From contig NZ_CCYH01000004.1 of assembly GCF_000820765.1 (NCBI RefSeq), positions 62,001 through 126,000 on the forward strand: a stretch of DNA of 64,000 nt, in the 5' to 3' direction. Below the pieces are notes generated by a model, which ran no database searches, was not told the origin of the DNA, and saw only the letters and a list, made by a program, of their open reading frames with translations. The DNA comes from Candidatus Soleaferrea massiliensis AP7 (GTDB taxonomy: Bacteria > Bacillota > Clostridia > Oscillospirales > Ruminococcaceae). This document shows, one piece after another, positions 15,744 through 62,196 of the stretch (position 1 is its first letter; every line of letters starts with the position of its first letter). The translations under genes and the position numbers were made by a program.

Positions 15744-16430
15744 CTAGGCGGTGAAGTCCGTGATGCGCGCGCCTTCGCCGAAGGTGGTTTCCCAATCCTT
15801 GTGGAAATTGTCCACGGCCTGCGCAATCGCGGGCATCTGCAGCGCGGCGTGCAGGATGTCGGGGGAAACTGTGGCGCTCTGCGCGCCGCAGCTGAACGCA
15901 TCGGTCACCTGGCCGATGTTTTTGAAGCTTGCGGCCAGAATTTTGCTGTCGTAGCCGTACATCCGGATCAAATCCGCGATTTCGGCAATCACAGCGCGCG
16001 GGTCGATGCTCATATTCTCCATGCGGTTGAAATACGGCGCGAGATAATCCGCGCCCGCCTGTATGGCCAGGATCGCCTGAATCTTTGTATAGATGGCGGT
16101 TGCCGTGATGTTGACGCCGCGCTCCTTTAAAACCCGCATGACCTTAAGCCCGTCCTCGGTGACCGGGACCTTGATGTACACATCGTTGTCCACGCCCGCG
16201 AGAATCGCATCCGCTTCCTTCAGCATGCTTTCGGCGTCGGACGAGACGACCTGGATATGTAAGGACCTTTCCGAACCGATGAGTGCGCGGATTTTGCGGA
16301 AATGCGCGAAGAAATCGATCCTGCCTTCCGCTTTGATGATGCTCGGGTTGCTGGTCACGCCGGTGATCGGATAGATCTCGCCGTAACGGCGGATGTCCTC
16401 CAGATTGGCGGTGTCAAACAAAAATTCCAT
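15744..16430 (-). CDS. Fructose-6-phosphate aldolase / transaldolase-like (FSA/TalC family)
   Basis: 228 residues, the short form typical of FSA-type enzymes. N-terminus MEFLFDTANLEDIRRYGEIYPITGVTSNPSII is the family signature. The Schiff-base lysine is K87 in YIKVPVT, equivalent to K85 of E. coli FSA. These class I aldolases split ketose phosphates such as fructose 6-phosphate or 1-deoxy-fructose 6-phosphate into glyceraldehyde 3-phosphate plus dihydroxyacetone or hydroxyacetone. It is the last gene of a four-gene minus-strand run (DeoR, ROK kinase, glycyl radical enzyme, aldolase). E. coli has the same pairing of a YbiW/PflD-type enzyme with FSA, which argues for a shared pathway. Confidence 0.9.
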   Translation of the reverse strand: MEFLFDTANLEDIRRYGEIYPITGVTSNPSIIKAEGRIDFFAHFRKIRALIGSERSLHIQVVSSDAESMLKEADAILAGVDNDVYIKVPVTEDGLKVMRVLKERGVNITATAIYTKIQAILAIQAGADYLAPYFNRMENMSIDPRAVIAEIADLIRMYGYDSKILAASFKNIGQVTDAFSCGAQSATVSPDILHAALQMPAIAQAVDNFHKDWETTFGEGARITDFTA

Positions 16431-16540
16431 GGCAGTAGCTCCTTTTCACATGTTAGAATGGTTTATGAAAGCGGGGGCGCGGGGCATTCCTTCGGAGGAA
16501 TACCCCGCCATACCGGCCCGCCGGTGAACGAAATGTCCGG

Positions 16541-18949
16541 CTACGCAAGCTCATGCTCGGTGCGCTCGATGATGTCATCCTGCGTCTGTTTGGACAGGAC
16601 GTTGAAGAAGGCGCTGTATCCGGCGACCCGGACGATCAGGTCGCGGTGCTTCTCAGGATGCTTCTGCGCGTCAAGCAGTGTGTCGCGGGAAACGACGTTG
16701 TACTGGACGTGGAAGCCGTGCAGGCGATTGAAGAAGGTCCGCACCAGGAAGATCAGCTTCATGCGGTCCTCTTCCTTCATCAGCACCTGCGGCGTGACCT
16801 TCTGGTTCAGCAGTACGCCGCCGGTGATCTTGGAGGTTTCGAGCTTCGAAACCGATTTGAAGACGGCGGTCGGGCCGTTTTTGTCCATCGCATGGGACGG
16901 GCTGCAGCCCTCGGCCAGCGGCGTGCCGGCCTTGCGGCCGTCCGGCGTCGCCGTGGTGCCGGCGCCCTGCGGGACATTCGCCGAAATCGAAGAGGTTCCG
17001 GCATAGTATACGCCGCCGACCGGTCCGCGTCCGAAGCGGGTGTTTTTGTATTTCGAGATTTCATCGATATAAGAATGATACGCTTTTTTGAGCAATAAGT
17101 CAATCTCATCGTCGTCATTTCCGTATTTTGGCGCCTTGTCGATCAAAAGCTTCTGGATGCGCTGGTTCTCAGGGCTTTCGAAGTTGTCGAGCAGCGCGTC
17201 CCACAGCTCGGATGCGGTCATCAGCTGCTTGTCGAAGACGCACTCCTTGATGGCGGCCAGCGAATCGCCGAGATTCGCGATGCCCACCTGCAGGCCGCTG
17301 ATGAAATCGTACACCGCGCCGCCCTCCTTGAGCGTCAGGCCGCGGTCGATGCAGTCGTCGATCAGCGCAGAGCACAGGATATCCGCCGCGTCCTCCTCAA
17401 GCACCATGTCGGCGCAGGAGTCGATGACGACGCTGTGGCGGGTAAATTCGCGGATGATCTTATCCCAGGCCGCCATGACCTCATCGAAGGAGGTCATCTC
17501 CCTGAAATGACCGACCCCCTCGCAGATGCGCTTACCGGAATCGATGTCCACACCGTCGTTGAGCGCGATCATCAGGGATTTCGGGAAGTTCAGGAAGCTC
17601 ATGCCGGTACAGCGGTAGCCCCATTTGCCCGGGACCGCGCATTCGACACAGCCGATGGCGCTGTAGTTGTAGGCATCCTCTTCCTTGACGCCCTTTTCGA
17701 TGAAGGACGGGATGATGATCTCATCGTTGTTGAAGGCCGGCATACCGAAGCCAAGCCGGATGACCTCGACGCACTCCTTCATGAAGTCGTCGCTCAGCCC
17801 CTTGTGGTAGCGGACGGTCAGATTGGGCTGCGGAAGCCGGGTCTGCGCGACGCTTCGCAGGATCAGATAGGACAGGCGGTTGACAGCGTCCTTTTTATCC
17901 GGCGTTTGTCCGCCGACCGTGACGTTCTGGTAAAGCGGGCTGCCCGCGCTGAACTTGGTGTGCGACCAGGAGCGGATTTTGTTGATCGTGTAGGTTTTGA
18001 GCCAGAAATTGGTCAGCAGCTCCACCGCGAAGTCCTCGTCGATCCTGCCGGCGTCCAGATCCTTCTGGAAATAGGGATGGACATACTGGTCCAGCCTGCC
18101 GTAGGACAGCGAATGTCCGTTCGATTCGATCTGCAGGCACAGATGGATGATCCAGATCGACTGCAGCGCTTCCTGGAAGCTTTCCGCCGGATGATACGGC
18201 ACCTTGCACAGGATGCGCGCCATCTCGGCAAGCTCCAGGCGGCGGCTTTCATCCTGCTCTGCGGATGCCATCTCGTCGGCCAAAGCCGCATAGCGTCCGG
18301 CAAAGTCGACGACGGCGTCCAGCACGATCAGAATCGCGCGGTAGAAGTAGGATTTCTTGAGGTTCTTGTAATCGGTCAGGTCCAGCGCGTTCAGATGTTC
18401 CACCGTCCGGTCGCGGTATCCCTTCAGGCCGTATTGCAGAACCTTCTCATAGTTGACCGCGACATGTGCGTCGCCTGAGGTGATGTTTCCCTCGGCCTTG
18501 ATGATGCCAAGATCGTAGAACAGCTTGCTTTCGGCCGGCATGGCGGCGAGGCCGCGCTCCTTCAGGGTGTTGTTCTCCCAGTACGGCGCGATATCCCGAA
18601 GCTGCTGCTTGGTCTCCTCTGTGATGTAGAACCGGTCGCCGTCGCGCTTCTCGAACTGATCGAGCTCGTCGATGACCCAGTCCATCGCGTATTCCGGGAA
18701 GATCGGCGCGCTGCGGTTGGAGGAAGCCTGGTTGCCGGCAATCAGGGTCTGCGGTTCGATGTAGATATCCATATGCTCCAGGATATTTTTTACCGTATAG
18801 GCACGGCGCAGAACCATCGGGTCGGCCTGATGCTTTTGATAGGATTCGGTCGCGAGGATCGCGCGCTGTGCGCAGACCATCGGCTTCGCGTTCAGCAGTT
18901 CCTCCCTGAAATCGTGCATCCTGGATGTCAGTTCACCAAAATAACTCAT
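16541..18949 (-). CDS. Glycyl radical enzyme of the YbiW/PflD (PflF) type
   Basis: 802 residues. The glycyl radical loop is RVAGYSAFF with the radical Gly at 777, and the active-site cysteine is C434 in SAIGCVECAVPG. The GCVE motif marks a dehydratase/lyase-type enzyme rather than true pyruvate formate-lyase; the following text AVPGKWGYRCTGMSF matches the E. coli YbiW/PflD group. From recalled literature, that group opens 1,5-anhydrohexitol 6-phosphates to 1-deoxy-ketose phosphates; I place moderate trust in that. The neighbours fit: ROK kinase upstream, FSA aldolase downstream, activase divergent at 21481. ATG at 18949, ribosome site GAGAGGGG, preceded by an A/T-rich hairpin at 18966-18997. 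Confidence 0.9.
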   Translation of the reverse strand: MSYFGELTSRMHDFREELLNAKPMVCAQRAILATESYQKHQADPMVLRRAYTVKNILEHMDIYIEPQTLIAGNQASSNRSAPIFPEYAMDWVIDELDQFEKRDGDRFYITEETKQQLRDIAPYWENNTLKERGLAAMPAESKLFYDLGIIKAEGNITSGDAHVAVNYEKVLQYGLKGYRDRTVEHLNALDLTDYKNLKKSYFYRAILIVLDAVVDFAGRYAALADEMASAEQDESRRLELAEMARILCKVPYHPAESFQEALQSIWIIHLCLQIESNGHSLSYGRLDQYVHPYFQKDLDAGRIDEDFAVELLTNFWLKTYTINKIRSWSHTKFSAGSPLYQNVTVGGQTPDKKDAVNRLSYLILRSVAQTRLPQPNLTVRYHKGLSDDFMKECVEVIRLGFGMPAFNNDEIIIPSFIEKGVKEEDAYNYSAIGCVECAVPGKWGYRCTGMSFLNFPKSLMIALNDGVDIDSGKRICEGVGHFREMTSFDEVMAAWDKIIREFTRHSVVIDSCADMVLEEDAADILCSALIDDCIDRGLTLKEGGAVYDFISGLQVGIANLGDSLAAIKECVFDKQLMTASELWDALLDNFESPENQRIQKLLIDKAPKYGNDDDEIDLLLKKAYHSYIDEISKYKNTRFGRGPVGGVYYAGTSSISANVPQGAGTTATPDGRKAGTPLAEGCSPSHAMDKNGPTAVFKSVSKLETSKITGGVLLNQKVTPQVLMKEEDRMKLIFLVRTFFNRLHGFHVQYNVVSRDTLLDAQKHPEKHRDLIVRVAGYSAFFNVLSKQTQDDIIERTEHELA

Positions 18950-19426
18950 ACAAAATCCCCTCTCTCATACTTTTTCTTTGGAAAAAGAAAAAGTATGCAA
19001 AAAGAAACCAATTTTTCTTATTGATAGCATATTGTTTTAAAGGGAGAGATCCCCCTGTGTTGAAGCAGTATCAAAATATGGAACCTTTAAAATCTGATGC
19101 GGTTTGCCGGATCGGTTCCGATCTGCTCTTGACAGCCCGCACCCGTCAGTTATAACCAGAGCTCGAATGGGGCGTTCAGTAAACTTGCATACTTGGAAAT
19201 GTGATCGGATTCATCTGGAAAGCTTACCGATAACCCCAACAGATCGTTGCGGTGACAGGAACCGATATTTCCTATAACAGCAGCCTGTTTTGGTTAAGAC
19301 AGGAACCGCTGCTTTCTGTTTCCCATCTTACAGGGAACAGCTGTGCGGAAGGGTTCTATATTCTTCAAACGCAGCATTTGCATTTCAGCCGGAGTGTTCA
19401 CGCTATGGGATATGCAACTGCTCTGT
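18950..19426. other. 477-bp gap inside the radical-enzyme operon
   Basis: No gene. At 18966-18997 CATACTTTTTCTTT and its complement form a long A/T-rich hairpin directly before the ribosome site of the glycyl radical enzyme. Around 19271-19315 AGCAGCCTGT... and ...ACAGG...GCTGCT form a second, weaker hairpin. The size of the gap suggests an internal promoter, processing site or leader control for the enzyme gene. Confidence 0.5.
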
Positions 19427-20380
19427 TTAGTCCTCAAATAACAGCTGTGCCGCGCCGATGATGCCGAAGTCGTCGCCAAGCTCGGCGAATTTAAAGTAGA
19501 CCGGCATGTCATTGTGATTGTAGGAATCGAAATAGCTGCGAATCGGATCGAACAGCATGCCGCCGAACTTGGTAAGCCCGCCTCCGAAGACAAAGCAGTT
19601 GATGTTCAGCAGGCTGTACATGTTGTAAACCCAGACCGCCAGGTATTTTGCCATGTGATCGATGGCCCAGCATGCAAGCGCGTCGCCCATCTTGGCTGCG
19701 TCCTCGATGTGCTTGGCGGTGATCTTTTCCGGCGCGCCCGCAAGCTCGACCATAATGGTCTGATCGCCGGCGATGATCCGCTGACGGATGTGCCGCACAA
19801 TCATCGAGCCAGAGGTGTGGGACATGAAGCAGCCCTTGTTTTCGCAGCCGCAGAGCACGCCCTCATCCGGCGTGATCAGCATATGTCCGGCCTCGCCCGA
19901 AAAGCCGTAGCTGCCGCGGAAGATATGGTCGTTGATGATGATACCGGCCGAGGTGCCGGTGCTGACCGGGCAGTAGATCATGTGCTTGAACCCGCGGCCC
20001 GCGCCGAAACGGTGCTCGGCAATCGCGCCGGTGTGGGAATCGTTGTCGATGACCACCCTCACGCCGAGCTTCCCGGCCAGATAATCCCGCGCGGCGAAAT
20101 CCTTGATCCTGGTCAGGTTGGTGGTCATCAGGATTTTTCCTTCGTCAAACAGTATGTATGAGGGCATCCCGATGCCGATGCCGGAAAGGTCCGCGGCCGT
20201 CAGGGAATTGCGCTGCAGCATCATGCCGATGTCCGATGCGATGCTGTCGAAGAACAGCGGTCCCGGGAGCGATTTATCCGAAGGGACCCGGTGCCGGTCG
20301 ATGATCTCATTCTTTTCATTAAACAGGCCGTAGGCGATCTTGGTACCGCCCACATCGATTCCAAAATAATAACGTTTCAT
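19427..20380 (-). CDS. ROK-family sugar kinase
   Basis: 317 residues. The ATP-binding motif DVGGTKIAYGL is at residues 9-19, the catalytic aspartate lies in VVIDNDSHTGAIAE, and the ROK zinc site appears as GEAGHMLI ... CGCENKGC, though the residue after the last cysteine is Phe-Met rather than the usual Leu-Glu. ROK kinases phosphorylate hexoses or related polyols at C6 in the cytoplasm. It begins 8 bases after the DeoR gene and precedes the glycyl radical enzyme. In this setting the natural guess is that it makes the 6-phosphate substrate of that enzyme; glucose or another sugar cannot be excluded. Confidence 0.88.
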   Translation of the reverse strand: MKRYYFGIDVGGTKIAYGLFNEKNEIIDRHRVPSDKSLPGPLFFDSIASDIGMMLQRNSLTAADLSGIGIGMPSYILFDEGKILMTTNLTRIKDFAARDYLAGKLGVRVVIDNDSHTGAIAEHRFGAGRGFKHMIYCPVSTGTSAGIIINDHIFRGSYGFSGEAGHMLITPDEGVLCGCENKGCFMSHTSGSMIVRHIRQRIIAGDQTIMVELAGAPEKITAKHIEDAAKMGDALACWAIDHMAKYLAVWVYNMYSLLNINCFVFGGGLTKFGGMLFDPIRSYFDSYNHNDMPVYFKFAELGDDFGIIGAAQLLFED

Positions 20381-20388
20381 CTTACGCC

Positions 20389-21168
20389 CTATCCTTTCTG
20401 ATTCGGTTCGCCGGCGCTGACCGGCACCGTCTGCACATGAATGCCGTTTTGGATGAGTCCCGCCTTGATGGACGCGGGGATCTGGTCGTCGGTGAACAGG
20501 AAATCCACCTCCGAAGCATCGAACTGCTTGGCGACGCCGCGGCGCTCGAACTTGGTCGATTCGGTCAGCACCACGACATTGTCGGCGTATTTTGCCATGG
20601 TACGCACCGTGGCGGCACGCTGGTAGTCGTTGCCCGTAAAGCCGGCCGAGCTTGAAAAGCCGTCCGTGCCGATAAAGAGTTTATCCACATAGAATTCCGA
20701 TGCGCAGAGACTGGTGATCGGTCCGACCAGCACCTGCGACTGCGGCTGGTATTCGCCGCCCAGCAGCACCACGCGGACGAACGGCGCCTGCCGGATGTAG
20801 GATGCGATAAACGCGGAGTTCGTGACGATCGTCACATCCCGGCGGTTAAACGCCAGCTCGGCGGCCAGCAGCGCGCAGCAGGAGCCGGATTCGATCATGA
20901 CCGTCTCACCGCTCCCGACCAGCTCGGCGGCCATGCGGGCGATGCGCTGCTTTAGTTCATACTGGAACGCCAGCCGGTTGCCGATGTCGTCGCTGGAGAC
21001 CTTGACCGCATGGCCGTGCTCGCGGCGCAGCAGCCCTTTCTTCTCCAACGTATCCAGATCCTTGCGGACGGTGACTTGTGACACGCCCAGCAGTTCTGCA
21101 AGCTTTACCACCTCGACGCGGTTCTTTTGATTGACAATGTCGAGCAGTTTTGTATGTCTCCCTATCAT
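20389..21168 (-). CDS. DeoR-family transcription regulator of the catabolic operon
   Basis: 259 residues from the ATG at 21168 (MIGRHTKLLDIVNQ); GGGAG lies nine bases upstream, while an ATG three codons earlier abuts that site. The N-terminal winged helix-turn-helix reads VVKLAELLGVSQVTVRKDLDTLEKKGLLRREHG, and the C-terminal sugar-phosphate-sensing DeoRC domain follows (IESGSCCALLAAEL, TNSAFIASYI, LLGGEY, KLFIGTDGF). DeoR proteins are normally repressors relieved by a phosphorylated sugar of the pathway. It is first in the operon, so it is probably autoregulated, and likely also controls the divergent activase. Confidence 0.9.
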   Translation of the reverse strand: MIGRHTKLLDIVNQKNRVEVVKLAELLGVSQVTVRKDLDTLEKKGLLRREHGHAVKVSSDDIGNRLAFQYELKQRIARMAAELVGSGETVMIESGSCCALLAAELAFNRRDVTIVTNSAFIASYIRQAPFVRVVLLGGEYQPQSQVLVGPITSLCASEFYVDKLFIGTDGFSSSAGFTGNDYQRAATVRTMAKYADNVVVLTESTKFERRGVAKQFDASEVDFLFTDDQIPASIKAGLIQNGIHVQTVPVSAGEPNQKG

Positions 21169-21236
21169 AGCGTTCATCTCCCTTGTATCATTATTTAAAG
21201 GATAACACAAAGCTGCCGAAGTTGCAATCCGAAAGT

Positions 21237-21246
21237 TTCATATGAA
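21237..21246. promoter_or_regulatory. Candidate DeoR operator palindrome
   Basis: TTCATATGAA, a perfect 10-base palindrome, lies about 25 bases downstream of the predicted deoR-operon -10 box, in the leader. A related TTTCAT half-site occurs on the other strand near 21360. Suggested only by position and symmetry. Confidence 0.35.
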
Positions 21247-21273
21247 TCAGGATATATTTTCTTTTGCAATTTC

Positions 21274-21301
21274 ATTATACACCATCCGCAAGAAATGTCA
21301 A
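21274..21301 (-). promoter_or_regulatory. Sigma-A promoter of the DeoR-ROK-radical enzyme-aldolase operon
   Basis: Minus-strand TTGACA (21296-21301) and TATAAT (21274-21279), 16 bases apart; both are exact consensus hexamers. It gives a leader of about 100 bases before the DeoR start. Confidence 0.8.
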
Positions 21302-21374
21302 GCGATTTTTTTGCGGATAAAGAAGAAATTGAATTCGTTAATAATAATATATGCTTACGAATGAAATTTTGTTC

Positions 21375-21403
21375 TTTACATCAAGTCGGCCATGTGGTAC
21401 AAT
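21375..21403 (+). promoter_or_regulatory. Promoter of the radical-SAM activase gene
   Basis: TTTACA (21375-21380), 17-base spacer, TACAAT (21398-21403). It is divergent from the DeoR operon promoter, with about 75 bases between the two -35 boxes. Confidence 0.7.
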
Positions 21404-21480
21404 GAAGCCAAAGAATTTTACATAAAATCTGTTTTGACACAGGGTAAAAAACGAAAAACCGATGAAATGAGGATGATTTC

Positions 21481-22383
21481 ATGAAAGCACCGCGCGCATG
21501 CATCTTTAATATTCAGAAATTCAGCATCCATGACGGACCGGGCATCCGGACCGTGGTGTTCTTTAAGGGCTGTCCGCTGCGCTGTAAGTGGTGTTCCAAC
21601 CCGGAGAGCCAGCGCGGTAATGTGCAGCTTCTGTGGGACAGGAATGCCTGCGTCGGCTGCAGGCGCTGTGAGCAGGCCTGTTCACAGCGGGCGGTTTCAT
21701 TTGAAAACGGCCGCGTGCTGATCGACCGGGCGCGCTGCATCGGCTGCGGAGCATGCGCTGACATCTGTGAAGCCGGCGCCCTCACCAGGGAAGGAAGACT
21801 CTATACGCTGGAAGAGGTGCTGCACACCGCCATGCAGGATGAACCCTTTTATGAGGAATCCGGCGGCGGCGTCACACTGTCGGGCGGCGAAGTGCTCTCG
21901 CAGGTTTCATTTGCCGCGCAGCTTTTGCGGAGCCTGCAGGAGCGGGGCATCCATACAGCGTGTGAGACGACCGGTTATGGAGAAAAGGAGGACTTCCTGC
22001 GGCTGATTGAGTATACGGATCTGCTGCTCTTCGATATGAAGCATCATGACGATAAAAAGCACCGGGAAGGCACCGGCATCGGCAACGCGCAGATCATCGC
22101 GAACATGACGCTGGCATCGGCAATGGGAAAAGAGATCATCGTGCGCATCCCGGTGATCCCCGGCTTCAATGACGGCCTTACAGACGCACACGGATTCTGC
22201 GATCTGCTGACGGATATCGGCATCAAGAGGGTAAACCTGCTGCCGTTCCATCAGTTCGGCCAAAAGAAATATGAATTGCTGGGTCTCGAATACGCCTATG
22301 CGGGTGTGCCGCAGCTGCATCCGGAGGATCTGAAGGAGTACCAGCGGTTTTTTTTAAACAGGGGTTTCGATTGTACCATCTGA
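21481..22383 (+). CDS. Glycyl-radical-enzyme activating enzyme (radical SAM)
   Basis: 300 residues. The radical SAM cluster motif is C31-PLR-C35-KW-C38; a ferredoxin-like insert with two 4Fe-4S motifs follows (cysteines 57, 60, 63, 67 and 86, 89, 92, 96), as in activases of the dehydratase/lyase-type glycyl radical enzymes. Other family signatures are FSIHDGPGIRTVVFFKGC, the SGGGVTLSGGE box, and FDMKHHDDKKHREGTG. It uses S-adenosylmethionine to pull a hydrogen from the glycine (G777) of its partner enzyme. The partner is almost certainly the enzyme at 16541-18949, transcribed away from it. Confidence 0.93.
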   Translation: MKAPRACIFNIQKFSIHDGPGIRTVVFFKGCPLRCKWCSNPESQRGNVQLLWDRNACVGCRRCEQACSQRAVSFENGRVLIDRARCIGCGACADICEAGALTREGRLYTLEEVLHTAMQDEPFYEESGGGVTLSGGEVLSQVSFAAQLLRSLQERGIHTACETTGYGEKEDFLRLIEYTDLLLFDMKHHDDKKHREGTGIGNAQIIANMTLASAMGKEIIVRIPVIPGFNDGLTDAHGFCDLLTDIGIKRVNLLPFHQFGQKKYELLGLEYAYAGVPQLHPEDLKEYQRFFLNRGFDCTI

Positions 22384-23376: not shown

Positions 23377-26300
23377 ATGATATTGAAGAAAATATCCGTT
23401 ACAGCCGGCCTTCTGGCAAGCGTCATCGCACTGACAAGCTTCAGCTTCGGTCCGTATATGGCGTCGGCACAGGAAACATCCGGAGAAGGAACCGTTTCCC
23501 CAAACGGCCGCAACAGCATTGTGTTTTATCTGGACGATGCCGGTGCGCCGACCTATCGGGTGCAGCGGGACGGCAGCACGCTGATGGAGGATTCCACCCT
23601 CGGCTTCGAGCTGGATGCCGGGAACGGCGGCCTGCTGACCGAGGGGTTTGAACTGCTTGAGACCAGAACCGATGCGGTCAACGAGCAGGAGACGCCGGTT
23701 TGGGGCTTTGAAGAGACACTTTACAACCACTACAACGAAACCACCTACTGCCTGGCGGAGAAGGACGGCCTTAAACGCAGGGTCAACGTGATCCTGCGCG
23801 CCTATGACACCGGCGTCGCGTTCCGCTATTATTTCCCGGAACAAGACGCGCTGTCCGCCTTTAAGATCATGAATGAAAAATCCACCTTCCAGCTTCCGGC
23901 CGGCACAAAGGCGCTGATCCATGACGGATGGAGCCAGGGCATCCCGGTCGAAAAGGATGTCTCGCAGTTCTCCAGCACCAACATGCGCACGCCGATGACC
24001 TTCCTCTATGAAAATGGCACGGCCGCGACGCTGCATGAGGCGAGCCTCTACGACTATGCGCGCATCCAGCTTTCGGCGGTTTCCGGACAGCCCGGCAAGC
24101 TGGTAACCAACATCAAGTGGGCGAAAAACACCTCCTGGCCGGCGCCGTCCTATGATCCGCCGACCGGCGACTATGTAAACGCGCGCACCGACTACTACAC
24201 GCCCTGGCGGCTGCTGATCATCAGCGACAGCCAGATCGGGCTTTTGGAGAACAACAGCCTGATCTACAACCTGAACGATCCGTGCAAAATGGAGGACACC
24301 TCCTGGATTACAGCCGGCAAGACCCAGATGTGCTACGATATGACGGCTGCGGGCATCAAGAAGGCGATCGACTTCGCGGTGTTCCAGAACGACCAGTATG
24401 TGCTGATCGATTCGGGATGGTACGGCACCGAGGACGACCGCACCAGCGACCCGAACAAGGTCAAGCCAGGTGAAAACTACCTGTATTCAAGCCATGAGCC
24501 GCCGTCGAAGGTTTACGTCGACTTCGAGATGGAGGACATCATGGCCTACGCCAGGGAGAAGGGCGTCAAGATGATCTTTTATGTCAACCACATCGCGCTG
24601 GAGGACTACGATCTTGAGACGCTGTTCACCACCTATGAAAACTGGGGCATCGCGGGCGTCAAATTCGGCTTCATCAACTATGGAAGCCAGTACTGGACCA
24701 ACTGGTTCAAGGATGCCGTCGAGATTGCGGCGAAGCATCACATTGCGGTGGTCGCGCATGACGAGGACGTCTCAACCGGCTTTGAAAGGACCTATCCGAA
24801 CCTGCTTTCTCTGGAGGGCATTCTGGGCGACGAGGGAAACGTCACCGCGTCGGACGACCTCAAGAGCCTGTTTACCCGGTCGGTTGCGAACAACGCCGAC
24901 CACACCTATTTTACAAATCCCGGCAGAAAATCCACCGCCTTCAACGTCGCGCTGCCGCTGTTCTTCTACTCCGGCGGACAGGCGCTGTTCTGGGAGGGGG
25001 CGAATCCGGATACGACCAACGAGAAGCGCAACGCGCAGCTCAAGTTCTGGCGCGATATGCCCGGCAGCTACGATGAAGTTCTGCCGATCGAAGGCGAATT
25101 CGGCAGATATGCGACCCTTGCGCGCCGCGCGGGCGACGAATGGTTCTTGGGCAGCATCAATTCCGATGAACGGGATTTGAGCCTTGCATTCGATTTCCTC
25201 GGGGAGGGCAAGTATGTCGCGGAGTTCTATGCAAGCCCGGAAGATGCCATCGAAACCTCCCGCGAGGTGCTGCTTTCCAAATACATTGTGGACAGCGAGA
25301 CGGTCTACAGCCAGCATATGCCGCTTTCCGGCGGACTGGCCATTCATTTTTATCCGGCAAGCGACGAGGAGATTGCAAGCATCCCGGACTTCATGAAGCT
25401 GACGCTGCAGCAGACCATCGATCTTGCGAAGTCCAGACTGGGAGGCGCTTATACAACCCGCAGCAAACGGGAGCTTACCGCCGCCATTGAAGAAGCGCAG
25501 GCGGTCTATGAGGATCTGGGCGCGACCAAAGAACAGGTCAACGAAGCGTCGGCAGCGCTTTCAGAGAAGATCGATGCCCTGAGGAGCGCGAACATCCTGT
25601 CGGATTGGATTTCTCAGTCCGAGATGCGCGTTGTGTCCACATCCTCCCCGGGCGCGGAGGGACCTGCGTCGAATATGCTGGACGGCAGCGAAAACAGCAT
25701 CTGGCATTCCTACTATAAATGGGAAGGCTCGGCGGAGACGGTCAAGGAGAAGCCGCCGCATTGGGTGATTGTGGATTTGGGAAGCGAGCAGGTGGTGACC
25801 GAGGTTTCACTGATCAACCGTCCGGAGGGCGGTCATCACAACGGTATCTTCCTGGATGCCGAAATCTACACCAGTATGGACGGCGAAGCCTTCACACTGG
25901 CAGGGACCGTGACTTGGCCGGAGGCGACCGGCGCGCGTTCGGTATCCATCCAGCCTACCGCCGCACGCTATGTCAAGGTGGTTGCGACCCGTACCGTCAA
26001 TGACTACGGCGTCATCGCCGAATTCAACGTCAAAGCGTCCCCGCTCAGCGAGTCGGTCGGCATGATTGCCCGCGCGGAATACCTGCGCCCGCTCCTGCCG
26101 CAGGAGATGCAGGACGCACTGAATGAAGAGATTCTGAAGGTATACGATTTCATCGAAAACGGCGGCGTCAAAGAGGATGAGGCGGCAGCCATTGCGCCGC
26201 TGGCCGCGATGATTGCCCAATTCGAAGAGGATATGGCGACCATCTCCGGTATCCGCATCGACGGCGTGCCGCTGATGGGATTCGCGCTGGACAAGGAGGT

Positions 26301-27141
26301 ATATACCATCCCGGTCACCGATGCTTCGGCGGCGGTTCCGGTCGTCAGCGCCGATAAGGAAAACGAGTATGTGAACCTTTCGATCGAACAGGCCTGGGCG
26401 GTTCCGGGCGACGCGGTCGTCACGGTCCAGAACAAAGCGGGCAGCACCTATACCTATACGCTGCGCTTCCGCGCGTCACGCACCGATTATCTCAGCGATC
26501 TCGACTGGGTCAGCGCGCGCAGCGACGTGCAGGAACTGTATGGCGACAAGAACGGCGTGCGCCGGGATTATTCCTATGAAGGCCCGCTGGCGCTGAATAT
26601 CAACAATGAAATCCGGCAGTTCAGCAAGGGCATCGGCATGCACGCGAACGCCGAGGCAGTCTATGACCTGGAGGGGCTTGACTACACGACCTTCGAGAGC
26701 TATATCGGCGTCAACGCGGTCAAGGCAAGCACCGATATCCGTCCATCCGTGACCTTTGAAGTCTGGGGCGACGGCGTACTGCTGTATGACAGCGGCATGA
26801 TGGGATATCAGACCCCGGCGAAGTTCATCAGCCTGGACATCACCGGCGTCAGGGAGCTGAAGCTGGTGGTCACCGATGGAAACGGCGACATCAGCGCCGA
26901 CCATGCGAACTGGTGCGACACGCGCCTTGTTTCGGTCGATTCCGCTCCCGCCATCCGACGCGGCGATGTGGACGACAGCGGCAGCGTCGGCGTGGCGGAC
27001 CTTCTGCAGATCAAGCAGATGATCCTGCGCGCAAGCGGCACCGACCGCCAGCACAAAGCGGCGGATGTCAACCGCGACGGTGTGCTCAACATCTTTGACC
27101 TGGTTCTCCTGAAGCTCGACATATTAAAAGGAACGGTCTGA
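23377..27141 (+). CDS. Secreted GH97 glycoside hydrolase with CBM32-like, NPCBM-like and dockerin modules
   Basis: 1254 residues. Signal peptide with likely cleavage after ASA at residue 31. Residues ~40-330 are the GH97 N-terminal beta domain and ~340-545 the catalytic barrel (SGWYGTED, VKMIFYVNHIALEDYD, GVKFGFINYG, NLLSLEGILGDEG). The retaining-enzyme nucleophile position appears as Gly in VKFGF, so an inverting alpha-glucosidase-like mechanism (SusB type) is more likely than alpha-galactosidase. Then a helical linker, an F5/8-type C domain (~738-886), an NPCBM domain (~1036-1186) and a dockerin with two calcium loops (GDVDDSGSVGVADLL and ADVNRDGVLNIFDLV, ~1195-1253). The dockerin implies attachment to a cohesin scaffold not in this window. 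A TTG two codons in (23383) has better ribosome-site spacing and may be the real start. Confidence 0.9.
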   Translation: MILKKISVTAGLLASVIALTSFSFGPYMASAQETSGEGTVSPNGRNSIVFYLDDAGAPTYRVQRDGSTLMEDSTLGFELDAGNGGLLTEGFELLETRTDAVNEQETPVWGFEETLYNHYNETTYCLAEKDGLKRRVNVILRAYDTGVAFRYYFPEQDALSAFKIMNEKSTFQLPAGTKALIHDGWSQGIPVEKDVSQFSSTNMRTPMTFLYENGTAATLHEASLYDYARIQLSAVSGQPGKLVTNIKWAKNTSWPAPSYDPPTGDYVNARTDYYTPWRLLIISDSQIGLLENNSLIYNLNDPCKMEDTSWITAGKTQMCYDMTAAGIKKAIDFAVFQNDQYVLIDSGWYGTEDDRTSDPNKVKPGENYLYSSHEPPSKVYVDFEMEDIMAYAREKGVKMIFYVNHIALEDYDLETLFTTYENWGIAGVKFGFINYGSQYWTNWFKDAVEIAAKHHIAVVAHDEDVSTGFERTYPNLLSLEGILGDEGNVTASDDLKSLFTRSVANNADHTYFTNPGRKSTAFNVALPLFFYSGGQALFWEGANPDTTNEKRNAQLKFWRDMPGSYDEVLPIEGEFGRYATLARRAGDEWFLGSINSDERDLSLAFDFLGEGKYVAEFYASPEDAIETSREVLLSKYIVDSETVYSQHMPLSGGLAIHFYPASDEEIASIPDFMKLTLQQTIDLAKSRLGGAYTTRSKRELTAAIEEAQAVYEDLGATKEQVNEASAALSEKIDALRSANILSDWISQSEMRVVSTSSPGAEGPASNMLDGSENSIWHSYYKWEGSAETVKEKPPHWVIVDLGSEQVVTEVSLINRPEGGHHNGIFLDAEIYTSMDGEAFTLAGTVTWPEATGARSVSIQPTAARYVKVVATRTVNDYGVIAEFNVKASPLSESVGMIARAEYLRPLLPQEMQDALNEEILKVYDFIENGGVKEDEAAAIAPLAAMIAQFEEDMATISGIRIDGVPLMGFALDKEVYTIPVTDASAAVPVVSADKENEYVNLSIEQAWAVPGDAVVTVQNKAGSTYTYTLRFRASRTDYLSDLDWVSARSDVQELYGDKNGVRRDYSYEGPLALNINNEIRQFSKGIGMHANAEAVYDLEGLDYTTFESYIGVNAVKASTDIRPSVTFEVWGDGVLLYDSGMMGYQTPAKFISLDITGVRELKLVVTDGNGDISADHANWCDTRLVSVDSAPAIRRGDVDDSGSVGVADLLQIKQMILRASGTDRQHKAADVNRDGVLNIFDLVLLKLDILKGTV

Positions 27142-38497: not shown

Positions 38498-40963
38498 ATG
38501 AAAAAAATGATTCTGCTGGTTGCGGCAGTTCTTATAATGACCAGTATCTTTCCAGCCGGCATCTCTGCGCAGTCACGGCGGACGGTGCGGGTGGCCTATC
38601 CGATTCAAGAGGGGCTTACCGATCTGGATGAGAACGGAAACTATACCGGCTATACCTATGAATATCTGGAAGAGATTGCGCAGTACACGGGGTGGGATTA
38701 CGAGTTTGTACAGGTTCCCGGGCCGATCGATGAGAGCCTGACCGCCCTGATGAATATGGTGGAAACCGGCGAAGTGGATTTGATCGGTGGCCTGCTGTAT
38801 CTGGAGGACTACGAGAAACGGTTCAATTATGCCAGCCACAGCTACGGCGTGGTGGAAACGGTCCTGCAGGTTTTGGCGGACAATACACAGAGCATTGTGG
38901 TCAACTCCCAGGTCCAGCAGAATTTCCGGATCGCTGTGACGAACAGGAACGGCAGGACCGCGCAGGAATTGAAGGATTACTGTAAGATGAACCTGATCAC
39001 GCCGGAGTTTGTCGATTGTACGAGTCAGGAAGAGCAGATAGCCGCCATGCGCGAGGGGCGCGCGGACATGATGCTGAACACCAGCCTGAACTTTGCGGGG
39101 GGAATCCGCACCATTGCCCGCTTTTCTCCCAAACCGTTCTACTTTGCCGTGACCAAAAAGGACGACAGCGGACTGCTGGAAAAGCTCAACGAGGCGATTA
39201 CCAGCATCGAGCAGACCGATTCGACCTTCTCATCGACGCTGTTCGATAAATACTTTGTCTCCGTAAACAATACCTTTATGCTGTCCGAAAAAGAAACGGA
39301 TTATCTGCAGTCGGCCGGAACGCTGCGCGTAGGGTATCTGAACCGGCAGCCTCCGTTCCAGTATCTGTCGGAGGAGGGCGGTTTCCGGGGGATTGCTACC
39401 GATCTGTTGGAGACGGTGTCGCAGAAAACCGGCTTGAAATTTGAGTGCGTGGGTGTGGATACCACAGAGGAATTGTATCGCAAGGCGGGCGCCGGGGAAA
39501 TTGATATGGTCGCCAGTATGCCCTACGACTATGATCTGGCGCGTGATCAGGAGCTTTCCATGACCCGGCCGTACCTCACAACGCAGTATGTTCTGCTTTC
39601 CAACAGGAGCAACGAGTCCATCACCGAAGAGGATCGTGAAGCGCAGGTGGAGATGAATGTGTATCCGCGGGGGCGGTCCGGAAAGGTGGTTTACTATGAC
39701 ACGATTGAGTCCTGCATCCAGGCCGTAGAAACCGGCGGAGCGGATTATACCGTTGTGGATGCGTATACCGCCCAGTATTACATCAATCAGCCCCGATTCG
39801 ACAACCTGCGGCTGGTTCAGCAGGAATCCCAGCCGAGAAGGATCTGTCTCGGGGTGGTGAAGTCCACCCAGCGCGAGCTGCTGTCCATCCTCAACAAGGC
39901 GATTGTTACGATGCCGGAAGAGGATATTCAGGGAATTATCAATCAAAATGTCATCCAGCGGCAGCCCCTGTCCATGATGGATATCATTCGGGAGAATCCG
40001 ATGGAATCCCTGCTGGTGGTCGGCGGCTTCCTGCTTCTGGTCATTGCGGGACTGCTCGTGATCCTGCGCCAGCGCGCAAAGATGAATAAAAAAACCTCCC
40101 TGGAACTGAAAAAGCATTTTCGCGTGTACGCGCTGATGAATGAATATTTTTATGAATATGATTTCCAGGCCGATGAGCTGCTTCTCTCCATTCCGCCGAA
40201 AAACGAAAAGAGCAAGCCGGAACTTGTGGTATGCAAAGCGCAGAATGAACAGGAAAGACAGTTCCAGGAGCCGTTTATGCAGCTGATCCGATCACAGGAG
40301 GACGGCGTCAGGGAGGTCTGTCTGCGTTATCTTGACGGGCAGTACCATTGGCTGCGCATTGCGCTCGAAACGGTCTATGACGACGACAAGCCAGCCTATG
40401 CGCTCGGCAAGATCCATGTCATCGACGATGAGCAGAAGGAGAAGGACGCGCTGCTCAGAAAAGCGCAGCTGGACAGCCTGACCCAGCTTTACAATGCCGA
40501 GACCTGCAGAAATATGGTGAAGGAGAGTCTGGCCGAACTGCGTGAACAGGAAAACGGGGCGCTGATCCTGGTGGATGTCGACCATTTCAAGCAGATCAAT
40601 GATACCTATGGCCATATGCGCGGGGATGAGACGCTCGTCCGCATTTCGAAGCTGCTGCGGGACAATTTCCGGGATGAGGACATTGTCGGACGTCCGGGCG
40701 GAGATGAATTCCTGATCTATATGAGGCGGATCAAAAACAGGCAGGCCCTGTCGGAGAAGTGCGCCGCGCTGTGCGCCTGTGTGCGTGCGCTCGACCTGGA
40801 GGACGGCGTTCATCTTTCCATCAGCGTTGGAGCGGCAATGTCCGAATGCGGGGACGCGTATAATGCGCTTTACCAATGTGCGGACCAGGCGCTGTACCGT
40901 GCGAAAGAGCAGGGACGGGACGGCTTCAGCATTGTCCGCGGAGAAGCCGGCCGTCCGCAGTAA
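38498..40963 (+). CDS. Membrane diguanylate cyclase with two extracellular solute-binding domains
   Basis: 821 residues. A signal peptide (ending near SAQS, residue ~25) is followed by two tandem SBP_bac_3 domains (~29-255 and ~270-490), each beginning with TVRVAYPIQEG or TLRVGYLNRQPPF and containing GEVDLIGG or GEIDMVAS. One membrane helix (SLLVVGGFLLLVIAGLLVIL, ~505-525) leads to a PAS-like linker (~530-650) and a GGDEF domain with intact GRPGGDEF (~730) and the inhibitory RxxD site five residues before it. It should make c-di-GMP from two GTP in response to a bound small molecule, perhaps an amino acid. No EAL domain is attached. Confidence 0.9.
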   Translation: MKKMILLVAAVLIMTSIFPAGISAQSRRTVRVAYPIQEGLTDLDENGNYTGYTYEYLEEIAQYTGWDYEFVQVPGPIDESLTALMNMVETGEVDLIGGLLYLEDYEKRFNYASHSYGVVETVLQVLADNTQSIVVNSQVQQNFRIAVTNRNGRTAQELKDYCKMNLITPEFVDCTSQEEQIAAMREGRADMMLNTSLNFAGGIRTIARFSPKPFYFAVTKKDDSGLLEKLNEAITSIEQTDSTFSSTLFDKYFVSVNNTFMLSEKETDYLQSAGTLRVGYLNRQPPFQYLSEEGGFRGIATDLLETVSQKTGLKFECVGVDTTEELYRKAGAGEIDMVASMPYDYDLARDQELSMTRPYLTTQYVLLSNRSNESITEEDREAQVEMNVYPRGRSGKVVYYDTIESCIQAVETGGADYTVVDAYTAQYYINQPRFDNLRLVQQESQPRRICLGVVKSTQRELLSILNKAIVTMPEEDIQGIINQNVIQRQPLSMMDIIRENPMESLLVVGGFLLLVIAGLLVILRQRAKMNKKTSLELKKHFRVYALMNEYFYEYDFQADELLLSIPPKNEKSKPELVVCKAQNEQERQFQEPFMQLIRSQEDGVREVCLRYLDGQYHWLRIALETVYDDDKPAYALGKIHVIDDEQKEKDALLRKAQLDSLTQLYNAETCRNMVKESLAELREQENGALILVDVDHFKQINDTYGHMRGDETLVRISKLLRDNFRDEDIVGRPGGDEFLIYMRRIKNRQALSEKCAALCACVRALDLEDGVHLSISVGAAMSECGDAYNALYQCADQALYRAKEQGRDGFSIVRGEAGRPQ

Positions 40964-61755: not shown

Positions 61756-62196
61756 TCAGTCCACAGCTTTTTTATATACCATCGGCGTATAACGTATACC
61801 GCCGGTGAGCTGTTCGGTATCGGTTTCTATGAAACCCAGGCGGCGATAGACCTCGACGGCATAGGGGGAGGAATTGACAGTAAACCGGCATGTTCCTGCG
61901 TGTTCGAGCAGCCATGCAAAGAGGGCTTTTCCGATGCCGCGGCGATGATGCTCCTTTGCGACGAAGAACAGCGAGATGTGATCACCCCGTAAAGCGAGGA
62001 CGCCGGCTAACGTTTCCCCATCGTATGCGCCGCAGGCGGTCAGCGCGGCAACCGCATCCGCGTCGTGGATGTAGTTATAAAAGGTCTGCACGCCGGCTTC
62101 GGAGTATTCCGGCGCTTCGAATTCCAGAAAGACCCGCCAAACCAGCTCCACCAGCGGCTGCAGGTCCTGCGGTGTCAGTTTCCGGAGGGTATACAT
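61756..62196 (-). CDS. GNAT-family N-acetyltransferase
   Basis: 146 residues from the ATG at 62196 (AAGGAG nine bases upstream). Typical acetyltransferase fold: YTLRKLTPQDLQPLVELVWRVF, GVLALRGDHISLFFVAKEHHRRGIGKALFAWLLEHA (acetyl-CoA binding motif RRGIGKAL), and VEVYRRLGFIETD. Substrate not predictable. Read away from mfd and toward the terminator of that gene; its ribosome site is intact. Confidence 0.87.
   Translation of the reverse strand: MYTLRKLTPQDLQPLVELVWRVFLEFEAPEYSEAGVQTFYNYIHDADAVAALTACGAYDGETLAGVLALRGDHISLFFVAKEHHRRGIGKALFAWLLEHAGTCRFTVNSSPYAVEVYRRLGFIETDTEQLTGGIRYTPMVYKKAVD

Follow-up and report, generated by a model that had tools for sequence, protein, structure and literature searches.

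A locus of five genes in Candidatus Soleaferrea massiliensis AP7 probably encodes anhydroglycolysis, with an ATP-dependent kinase of the ROK family doing the job that falls to the phosphotransferase system (PTS) in Escherichia coli. The locus lies in a stretch of 64,000 nucleotides, hereafter the window, that spans positions 62,001 to 126,000 of contig NZ_CCYH01000004.1 (assembly GCF_000820765.1). It comprises genes for an FSA-type aldolase, a YbiW-type glycyl radical enzyme, the kinase, and a DeoR-family regulator, with the gene for a radical SAM activase running divergently. According to an excerpt of the review PMC12441222 (which cites Ma et al. 2024, doi 10.1021/jacs.4c07718), YbiW and PflD cleave 1,5-anhydroglucitol 6-phosphate and 1,5-anhydromannitol 6-phosphate, respectively, to 1-deoxyfructose 6-phosphate, and phosphorylation in E. 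coli anhydroglycolysis is carried out by the PTS. Since the same excerpt already describes the YbiW lyase chemistry, the pathway itself is not new. Rather, the operon is a member of this recently described pathway with a different front end, and the new part is the kinase.

The kinase gene (19427-20380, minus strand) encodes 317 residues that match Pfam family ROK (PF00480) at 196.9 bits. The structural model (predicted local distance difference test, pLDDT, 93.8) finds ROK proteins as its best fold matches in VIA; the comparison with glucokinase chain 3vgk_B gives Z 35.0 and a root-mean-square deviation of 2.6 over 306 residues, level with the highest-ranked matches. The hallmarks of the family are all present: the ATP motif, the N-D pair, the E-x-G-H motif, and the zinc cysteine motif. 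Accordingly placed residues (D9, G11, G12, T13, N113, D114, E163, H166, C177, C179, and C184) are invariant in the window kinase and 23 relatives.

One expected residue is missing. In P. shigelloides NagK, residue D187 engages the 1'-OH of the sugar, and the D187N substitution raises the apparent KM for N-acetylglucosamine (GlcNAc) about fourfold, from 98 to 430 uM (both from the available part of PMC10031466). The active-site list of human N-acetylmannosamine (ManNAc) kinase, as excerpted from PMC12673733, includes Glu588. Alignment with E. coli NagK identifies D187 as the acid of the GCx[E/D] motif, within the zinc-motif stretch CGCKNSGCID. Glu588 of the human enzyme is presumably the counterpart acid. 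In the window kinase, aligned to solved ROK kinases, the stretch reads CGCENKGCFM, and the acid expected of ROK kinases that act on aldoses is replaced by Met186.

A lyase scan kept 80 loci, some of whose fetched stretches are short contigs (handles beginning with L, G, and C denote loci, genomes, and contigs, respectively). From these loci 39 ROK sequences were aligned, and 37 are of the window's type (44-66% identical, all at or above 40%); methionine occupies the column of the 1-OH ligand in every one of the 37. The other two carry glutamate (the gene at 21160 of L036, 28% identical) and glycine (the L069 gene, 25%), and L036 also has a Met-type ROK of its own. A looser search added a divergent ROK split over two frames in the Planctomycetota locus L022 (32-34%), which reads CTCGNRGCFM and again ends in methionine. 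Glutamate is found in all 30 other ROKs aligned from 27 genomes, a set of relatives that includes the window's genome, and E. coli NagK makes it 31 of 31; these 30 were taken from 55 matches other than the window's, the remaining 25 (some of them fragments, and L137 and L138 of the window's own genome among them) having been set aside. In the combined ROK tree the Met sequences are monophyletic (43 sequences, support 0.999). In the same alignment, methionine fills the column in 43 of 43 members of the clade, with glutamate in 32 sequences and glycine in one outside it, and N113, E163, and H166 are kept on both sides of that boundary.

Because N113, E163, and H166 are kept while the acid has become Met186, the kinase seems to have retained its contacts to the rest of the sugar and lost the ligand of the 1-OH. 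The 1,5-anhydro sugars have no 1-OH. Methionine in place of the binding acid would fit such a substrate and would also work against glucose. As read from the alignments, the Met186 pattern is evidence on the substrate that is independent of the lyase annotation, and the enzyme is a predicted 1,5-anhydroglucitol 6-kinase. More broadly, it is somewhat likely that the Met186 clade consists of widespread, isofunctional ATP-dependent 1,5-anhydrohexitol 6-kinases that discriminate against glucose through this nonpolar swap, and that sustain anhydroglycolysis in anaerobes without a suitable PTS, often together with ribose-type ABC importers. If so, a single residue would serve as a genome marker for the anhydrohexitol trait.

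The lyase gene (16541-18949, minus strand; 802 residues) matches NCBIfam TIGR01774 (PFL2-3) at 981.4 bits, above the cut-off of 678.2, and its Gly_radical domain scores 118.8 bits. The protein has the catalytic Cys-x-Glu as C434-V-E436 and, near its carboxyl-terminal end, the glycyl radical motif RVxGY with G777. It is 53.4% identical to YbiW and 38.5% to PflD. Its place in a 98-sequence tree is within a clade of 82 tips that includes YbiW (support 1.0), with PflD and its relatives outside. The closest solved sequence is 6xs4 (921.3 bits), named only as a formate C-acetyltransferase, followed by the YbiW entries 8id7 and 8yjn at about 912 bits; PflD (8yjo) scores 508. Blocks around the catalytic cysteine and other conserved blocks match YbiW and not PflD, for example GKWGYRCTGMSF and GRGPVGG, and the three proteins have similar glycyl loops. 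The lyase is therefore predicted, from these comparisons, to be a 1,5-anhydroglucitol-6-phosphate lyase of the YbiW type.

Other glycyl radical enzyme functions were considered and rejected: pyruvate formate-lyase (186.6 bits against the TIGR01255 cut-off of 994.2); choline trimethylamine-lyase (537.8 against 1050 for TIGR04394); hydroxyproline dehydratase and sulfopropanediol dehydratase (both below their NCBIfam cut-offs); and diol or glycerol dehydratase (649.3 bits for 1r8w and 584 for 5i2a, against about 912 for YbiW). The original prediction had named clustering with pyruvate formate-lyase or choline lyases as the outcome that would count against it, and the lyase groups with YbiW instead. 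The window's genome contains a second glycyl radical enzyme (G000:C32:58786-61188; L002 and L180) that is 36.0% identical to the window's lyase and 33.0% to PflD, and a match to a ribose-type binding protein adjoins it.

Kinase and lyase are linked beyond the window. A Met-type ROK is present in 37 of the 80 lyase loci. A reciprocal view comes from a search for the Met pattern in 391 genomes of the class, which returned 17 matches in 16 genomes: six in ROK frames, the window's included, and 11 in loci without a ROK-like reading frame. In all six genomes with a Met-pattern ROK, the contig that carries it also encodes a YbiW-type lyase, no more than about 10 kb away. Five of the six are among the seven genomes with a lyase at least 64% identical to the window's; in the sixth, G123, the lyase is 62.6% identical over 851 columns, lies about 5 kb from the ROK, and did not pass the E limit of the lyase search. 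The count of lyase genomes in the class is consequently a lower bound of at least eight (the seven plus G123), with five further genomes having 43-48% identical lyases left out. The Met ROK occurs in six of these eight genomes; the Met pattern is not matched in the other two, G160 and G182. The G123 lyase (L175, 15156-17732), of the YbiW type, has additional residues compared with the lyase of the window, 800 residues being spread over 851 columns of the alignment.

Some loci pair both lyase types with the kinase: L004, L027, L035, L047, L065, L074, and L178 (G411) each hold a YbiW-type and a PflD-like lyase in one stretch with a Met-type ROK. Such loci possibly serve joint use of both anhydrohexitols. 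They also bring up the alternative that 1,5-anhydroglucitol is not the main substrate of the window's operon, which would instead be directed at the PflD substrate 1,5-anhydromannitol or at both epimers. The kinase signature is informative about C1 alone, leaving the C2 epimers undistinguished, and a Met-type ROK accompanies six of the eight lyase loci with a PflD-like lyase of cluster 7 (the first six just named), as well as G411. The window's own lyase is nonetheless of the YbiW type by tree, motifs, and identity, and the only other glycyl radical enzyme noted in its genome is just 33.0% identical to PflD, which together make this alternative unlikely. (Four of the loci, L027, L035, L047, and L178, encode an extra protein of about 590-620 residues, cluster 16, whose representative has no Pfam match at 1e-5.)

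A second alternative holds that the ROK is an ordinary glucokinase, or another aldose kinase, placed in the operon by chance, and that the lyase substrate arises by another route. The best NCBIfam match of the kinase is indeed the ROK glucokinase TIGR00744 and its best solved sequence relative is the glucokinase 3vgk, but the TIGR00744 score of 211.2 bits is under the cut-off of 260.35. Loss of the 1-OH ligand in all 37 linked ROKs of this type, with N113, E163, and H166 kept, argues against an aldose substrate, and the recurrence of the Met-type ROK at 37 of 80 lyase loci argues against chance; this alternative is very unlikely.

The predicted 1,5-anhydroglucitol route continues with the aldolase (15744-16430, minus strand; 228 residues), which matches the fructose-6-phosphate aldolase family NF009299 at 324.8 bits (cut-off 214) and is 33.6% identical to E. 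coli FsaA. Ten positions that we take to be those of the FsaA active site were compared, and all ten are identical: D6, T26, N28, Q60, and K87 correspond to FsaA D6, T26, N28, Q59, and K85, and T111, A131, Y133, R136, and S168 to FsaA T109, A129, Y131, R134, and S166. The Schiff-base lysine of FSA-type aldolases is thereby accounted for by K87. At the position of FsaA L107, the window aldolase and all 27 related genes aligned have threonine. The enzyme is predicted to split 1-deoxy-fructose 6-phosphate. The activase (21481-22383, plus strand; 300 residues) matches TIGR02494 at 346.8 bits (cut-off 174.35) and contains Radical_SAM and Fer4 domains (Pfam), with C31, C35, and C38 forming the radical SAM CxxxCxxC motif in addition to 4Fe-4S ferredoxin motifs. 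That the lyase has drifted to another substrate (some other anhydro or 1-deoxy sugar phosphate, or a diol) in a related but different pathway is highly improbable: at 53% identity to YbiW some change is conceivable and a nearby GH97 enzyme may reflect a different source of glycan, but the motifs of the conserved blocks are nearly identical to those of YbiW, the kinase linked to the lyase indicates a sugar that lacks a 1-OH, and the compared aldolase positions are those of FsaA.

These assignments suggest a concrete model. Free 1,5-anhydroglucitol would enter by a non-PTS importer encoded outside the operon, and the Met186 kinase would phosphorylate it at C6. The activase, by analogy with its family, would install the glycyl radical on G777 of the lyase, which, acting through C434, would open the ring of 1,5-anhydroglucitol 6-phosphate to give 1-deoxy-fructose 6-phosphate, as reported for the homologue YbiW. 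The aldolase would then split this intermediate into glyceraldehyde 3-phosphate and hydroxyacetone, a step that Ma et al. 2024 are said to describe in their abstract. DeoR may repress the operon until a phosphorylated intermediate appears, as its family and a repeat over the promoter suggest. The direction of flow, the role of DeoR, and the substrates of kinase and lyase are all inferred. Local supply of anhydrofructose by a GH31 alpha-glucan lyase was also considered; eight GH31 matches, in five open reading frames (ORFs), occur in the genome.

The genomic distribution of transporters is consistent with a substitute for the PTS. Genes within 8 kb were tabulated for the 51 of 80 loci in which the lyase is flanked by at least 5 kb on each side, 29 being left out; L016, L039, L069, and L022, which have divergent ROK genes, were counted as without ROK, and L022, lacking flank, is outside the table. 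PTS genes occur in none of 17 loci with a Met-type ROK versus 11 of 34 without (Fisher 0.009, ignoring descent), and rbsA- or rbsC-like genes in nine of 17 versus none of 34 (Fisher 8e-6, likewise ignoring descent). With other RbsB-like matches added, the ribose-type importer count becomes 12 of 17 versus one of 34; an RbsB-like match in L003 that begins like a LacI-type regulator is excluded from the importer counts. Among the 52 full-flank tips of the lyase tree, at least 10 changes of the ROK label are needed, against a mean of 15.06 and a minimum of 8 in shuffles, indicating that the kinase is only weakly clustered on the tree and has often been exchanged. In the window's own genome, which is 98.9% complete, the families PTS enzyme I (PF05524), PTS_EIIC (PF02378), and EII-Sor (PF03609) have no match, and E. 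coli and other controls were matched; a PTS of these families is therefore unlikely to carry out the phosphorylation there. Two strong ribose-type binding proteins are encoded elsewhere in that genome (C40 and C18).

Several observations weigh against an anhydroglycolysis operon with a dedicated kinase. The Met signature belongs to one clade and represents one evolutionary change, not 37 independent ones. Divergent ROK-like genes, 23-25% identical to the window kinase, lie behind the aldolase or lyase in L016 (13139-14122), L039 (13156-14079), and L069 (13386-14429), all three of them YbiW-type loci with no Met-type ROK. They lack the zinc cysteine motif and hence the methionine, and those of L016 and L039 (23-24%, added by the looser search) have EcNagK as their best match. 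If these proteins act on the same sugar, the methionine is dispensable; possibly they represent a second kinase solution. A second, PflD-like lyase is present in some ROK loci, so 1,5-anhydroglucitol and 1,5-anhydromannitol may both be substrates of the kinase. The transporter pattern is incomplete: an rbsA- or rbsC-like gene is missing from eight of the 17 ROK loci, neither PTS nor ROK genes were recognised in 21 of the 34 loci lacking a Met-type ROK, the PTS and transporter references were E. coli proteins only, and shared descent is not part of the Fisher values. No importer gene is found in the operon itself. An FSA gene is present in three of the 37 ROK loci (in fetched stretches, many of them short), indicating that kinase, lyase, and aldolase are not a fixed set, and many relatives may use an aldolase encoded elsewhere. 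Finally, the 477-base gap between the kinase and lyase genes (18950-19426, minus strand, from the ORF list) may break the transcript, and co-transcription of the two is not certain.

The locus as a whole is not a chance assembly, since the lyase relatives in the 80 loci are 66-80% identical and most of the fetched stretches (some of them short contigs) contain homologues, at 100 bits or more, of the activase (65 of 80) and of DeoR (63 of 80). G203, from the same order as the window's genome, and L004 have the same five genes in the same layout; L014 also has all five, with the activase gene on the other strand but placed between those for DeoR and the kinase. The original prediction, made from the sequence alone, described this gene set and order, and the ORF list bears it out, as do the residues it singled out: C434 in GCVE, G777 in RVAGYSAFF, K87 of the aldolase, and C31-C35-C38 of the activase. 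Its proposal of 1,5-anhydrohexitol use finds support at the sequence level, to which the change from glutamate to methionine at the 1-OH ligand adds. It was likewise right about E. coli K-12, where fsaA adjoins ybiW-ybiY and neither a kinase gene nor a DeoR gene accompanies them. To call the locus more complete than that of E. coli is misleading: E. coli reportedly relies on its PTS, and the ROK is a substitute rather than a missing step supplied.

The DeoR regulator gene (20389-21210, minus strand) encodes 273 residues if read from the TTG of the ORF list, and the true start may be internal; the protein matches Pfam DeoRC (145 bits) and HTH_DeoR (57.9 bits). Ahead of it is a candidate sigma-70-type promoter (21274-21301, minus strand; TTGACA, 16 bases, TATAAT), a 12/12 match judged by consensus only. 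It is the sole perfect site in a scan of the region that gave six sites against a shuffle mean of 4.5. A weaker promoter-like site precedes the activase (21375-21403, plus strand; TTTACA, 17 bases, TACAAT, with TG), without clear excess over shuffles. An inverted repeat at 21284-21318 (two 12-base arms, 11/12 complementary, 11 bases apart) brackets the -35 box of the deoR promoter and is a candidate DeoR operator. A shared operator was considered and rejected, the repeat core being absent from 27 selected divergent spacers of relatives and from L179.

Within the 477-base gap, the sole listed sense reading of at least 90 residues (19294-19593, 99 residues) overlaps the end of the kinase in another frame. 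Just ahead of the lyase start, a perfect 14-base inverted repeat with a 4-base loop (18966-18997) could act as an attenuator or mRNA-stability element; two direct repeats lie at 19254-19273 and 19298-19317. The gap has no Rfam match at the gathering threshold. Next to the operon, 23377-27141 (plus strand) encodes the GH97 enzyme, of 1254 residues with NPCBM, F5/8 type C, and FIVAR domains and a C-terminal dockerin, which suggests a dockerin-based surface system. Farther on, 38498-40963 (plus strand) encodes a protein with a family-3 solute-binding domain and a GGDEF domain.

The Met186 signature is the most useful new point, as it makes the kinase substrate directly testable; the change from glutamate to methionine offers a simple, testable rule for substrate choice among ROK kinases and a genome marker for kinases of this kind. 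A kinase route would extend anhydroglucitol breakdown to organisms without a PTS. The 6-phosphate of this sugar also has a medical side: as noted in the available part of PMC12441222, neutrophils accumulate it, and are harmed by it, in two inherited diseases. No anhydroglucitol ROK kinase was found in the literature searched, which did not include the primary YbiW/PflD paper.

Comparison with known systems places the operon closest to E. coli YbiW-YbiY-FsaA, with which it shares the lyase clade and motifs, the activase and aldolase families, and the predicted chemistry. The E. coli system differs in relying on PTS phosphorylation (per the PMC12441222 excerpt) and in having no kinase or DeoR gene beside ybiW, whereas the window has both in the operon. 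The E. coli PflD-PflC pair with its Frw PTS genes, the 1,5-anhydromannitol branch, likewise combines a glycyl radical enzyme and an activase in related chemistry, but has PTS genes in its cluster, other motifs, and a lyase 38.5% identical to the window's. The aldolase agrees with FsaA and FsaB in type, with the ten compared FsaA positions identical, but it belongs to subgroup NF009299, is 33.6% identical to FsaA, and has threonine for L107. Finally, the kinase resembles S. griseus glucokinase (3vgk), P. shigelloides NagK (7p7i), and human ManNAc kinase in fold, in ATP, catalytic, and zinc motifs, and in the N-D and E-x-G-H elements; the GCx[E/D] acid, which in NagK engages the 1-OH, is replaced by Met186 in the window kinase.

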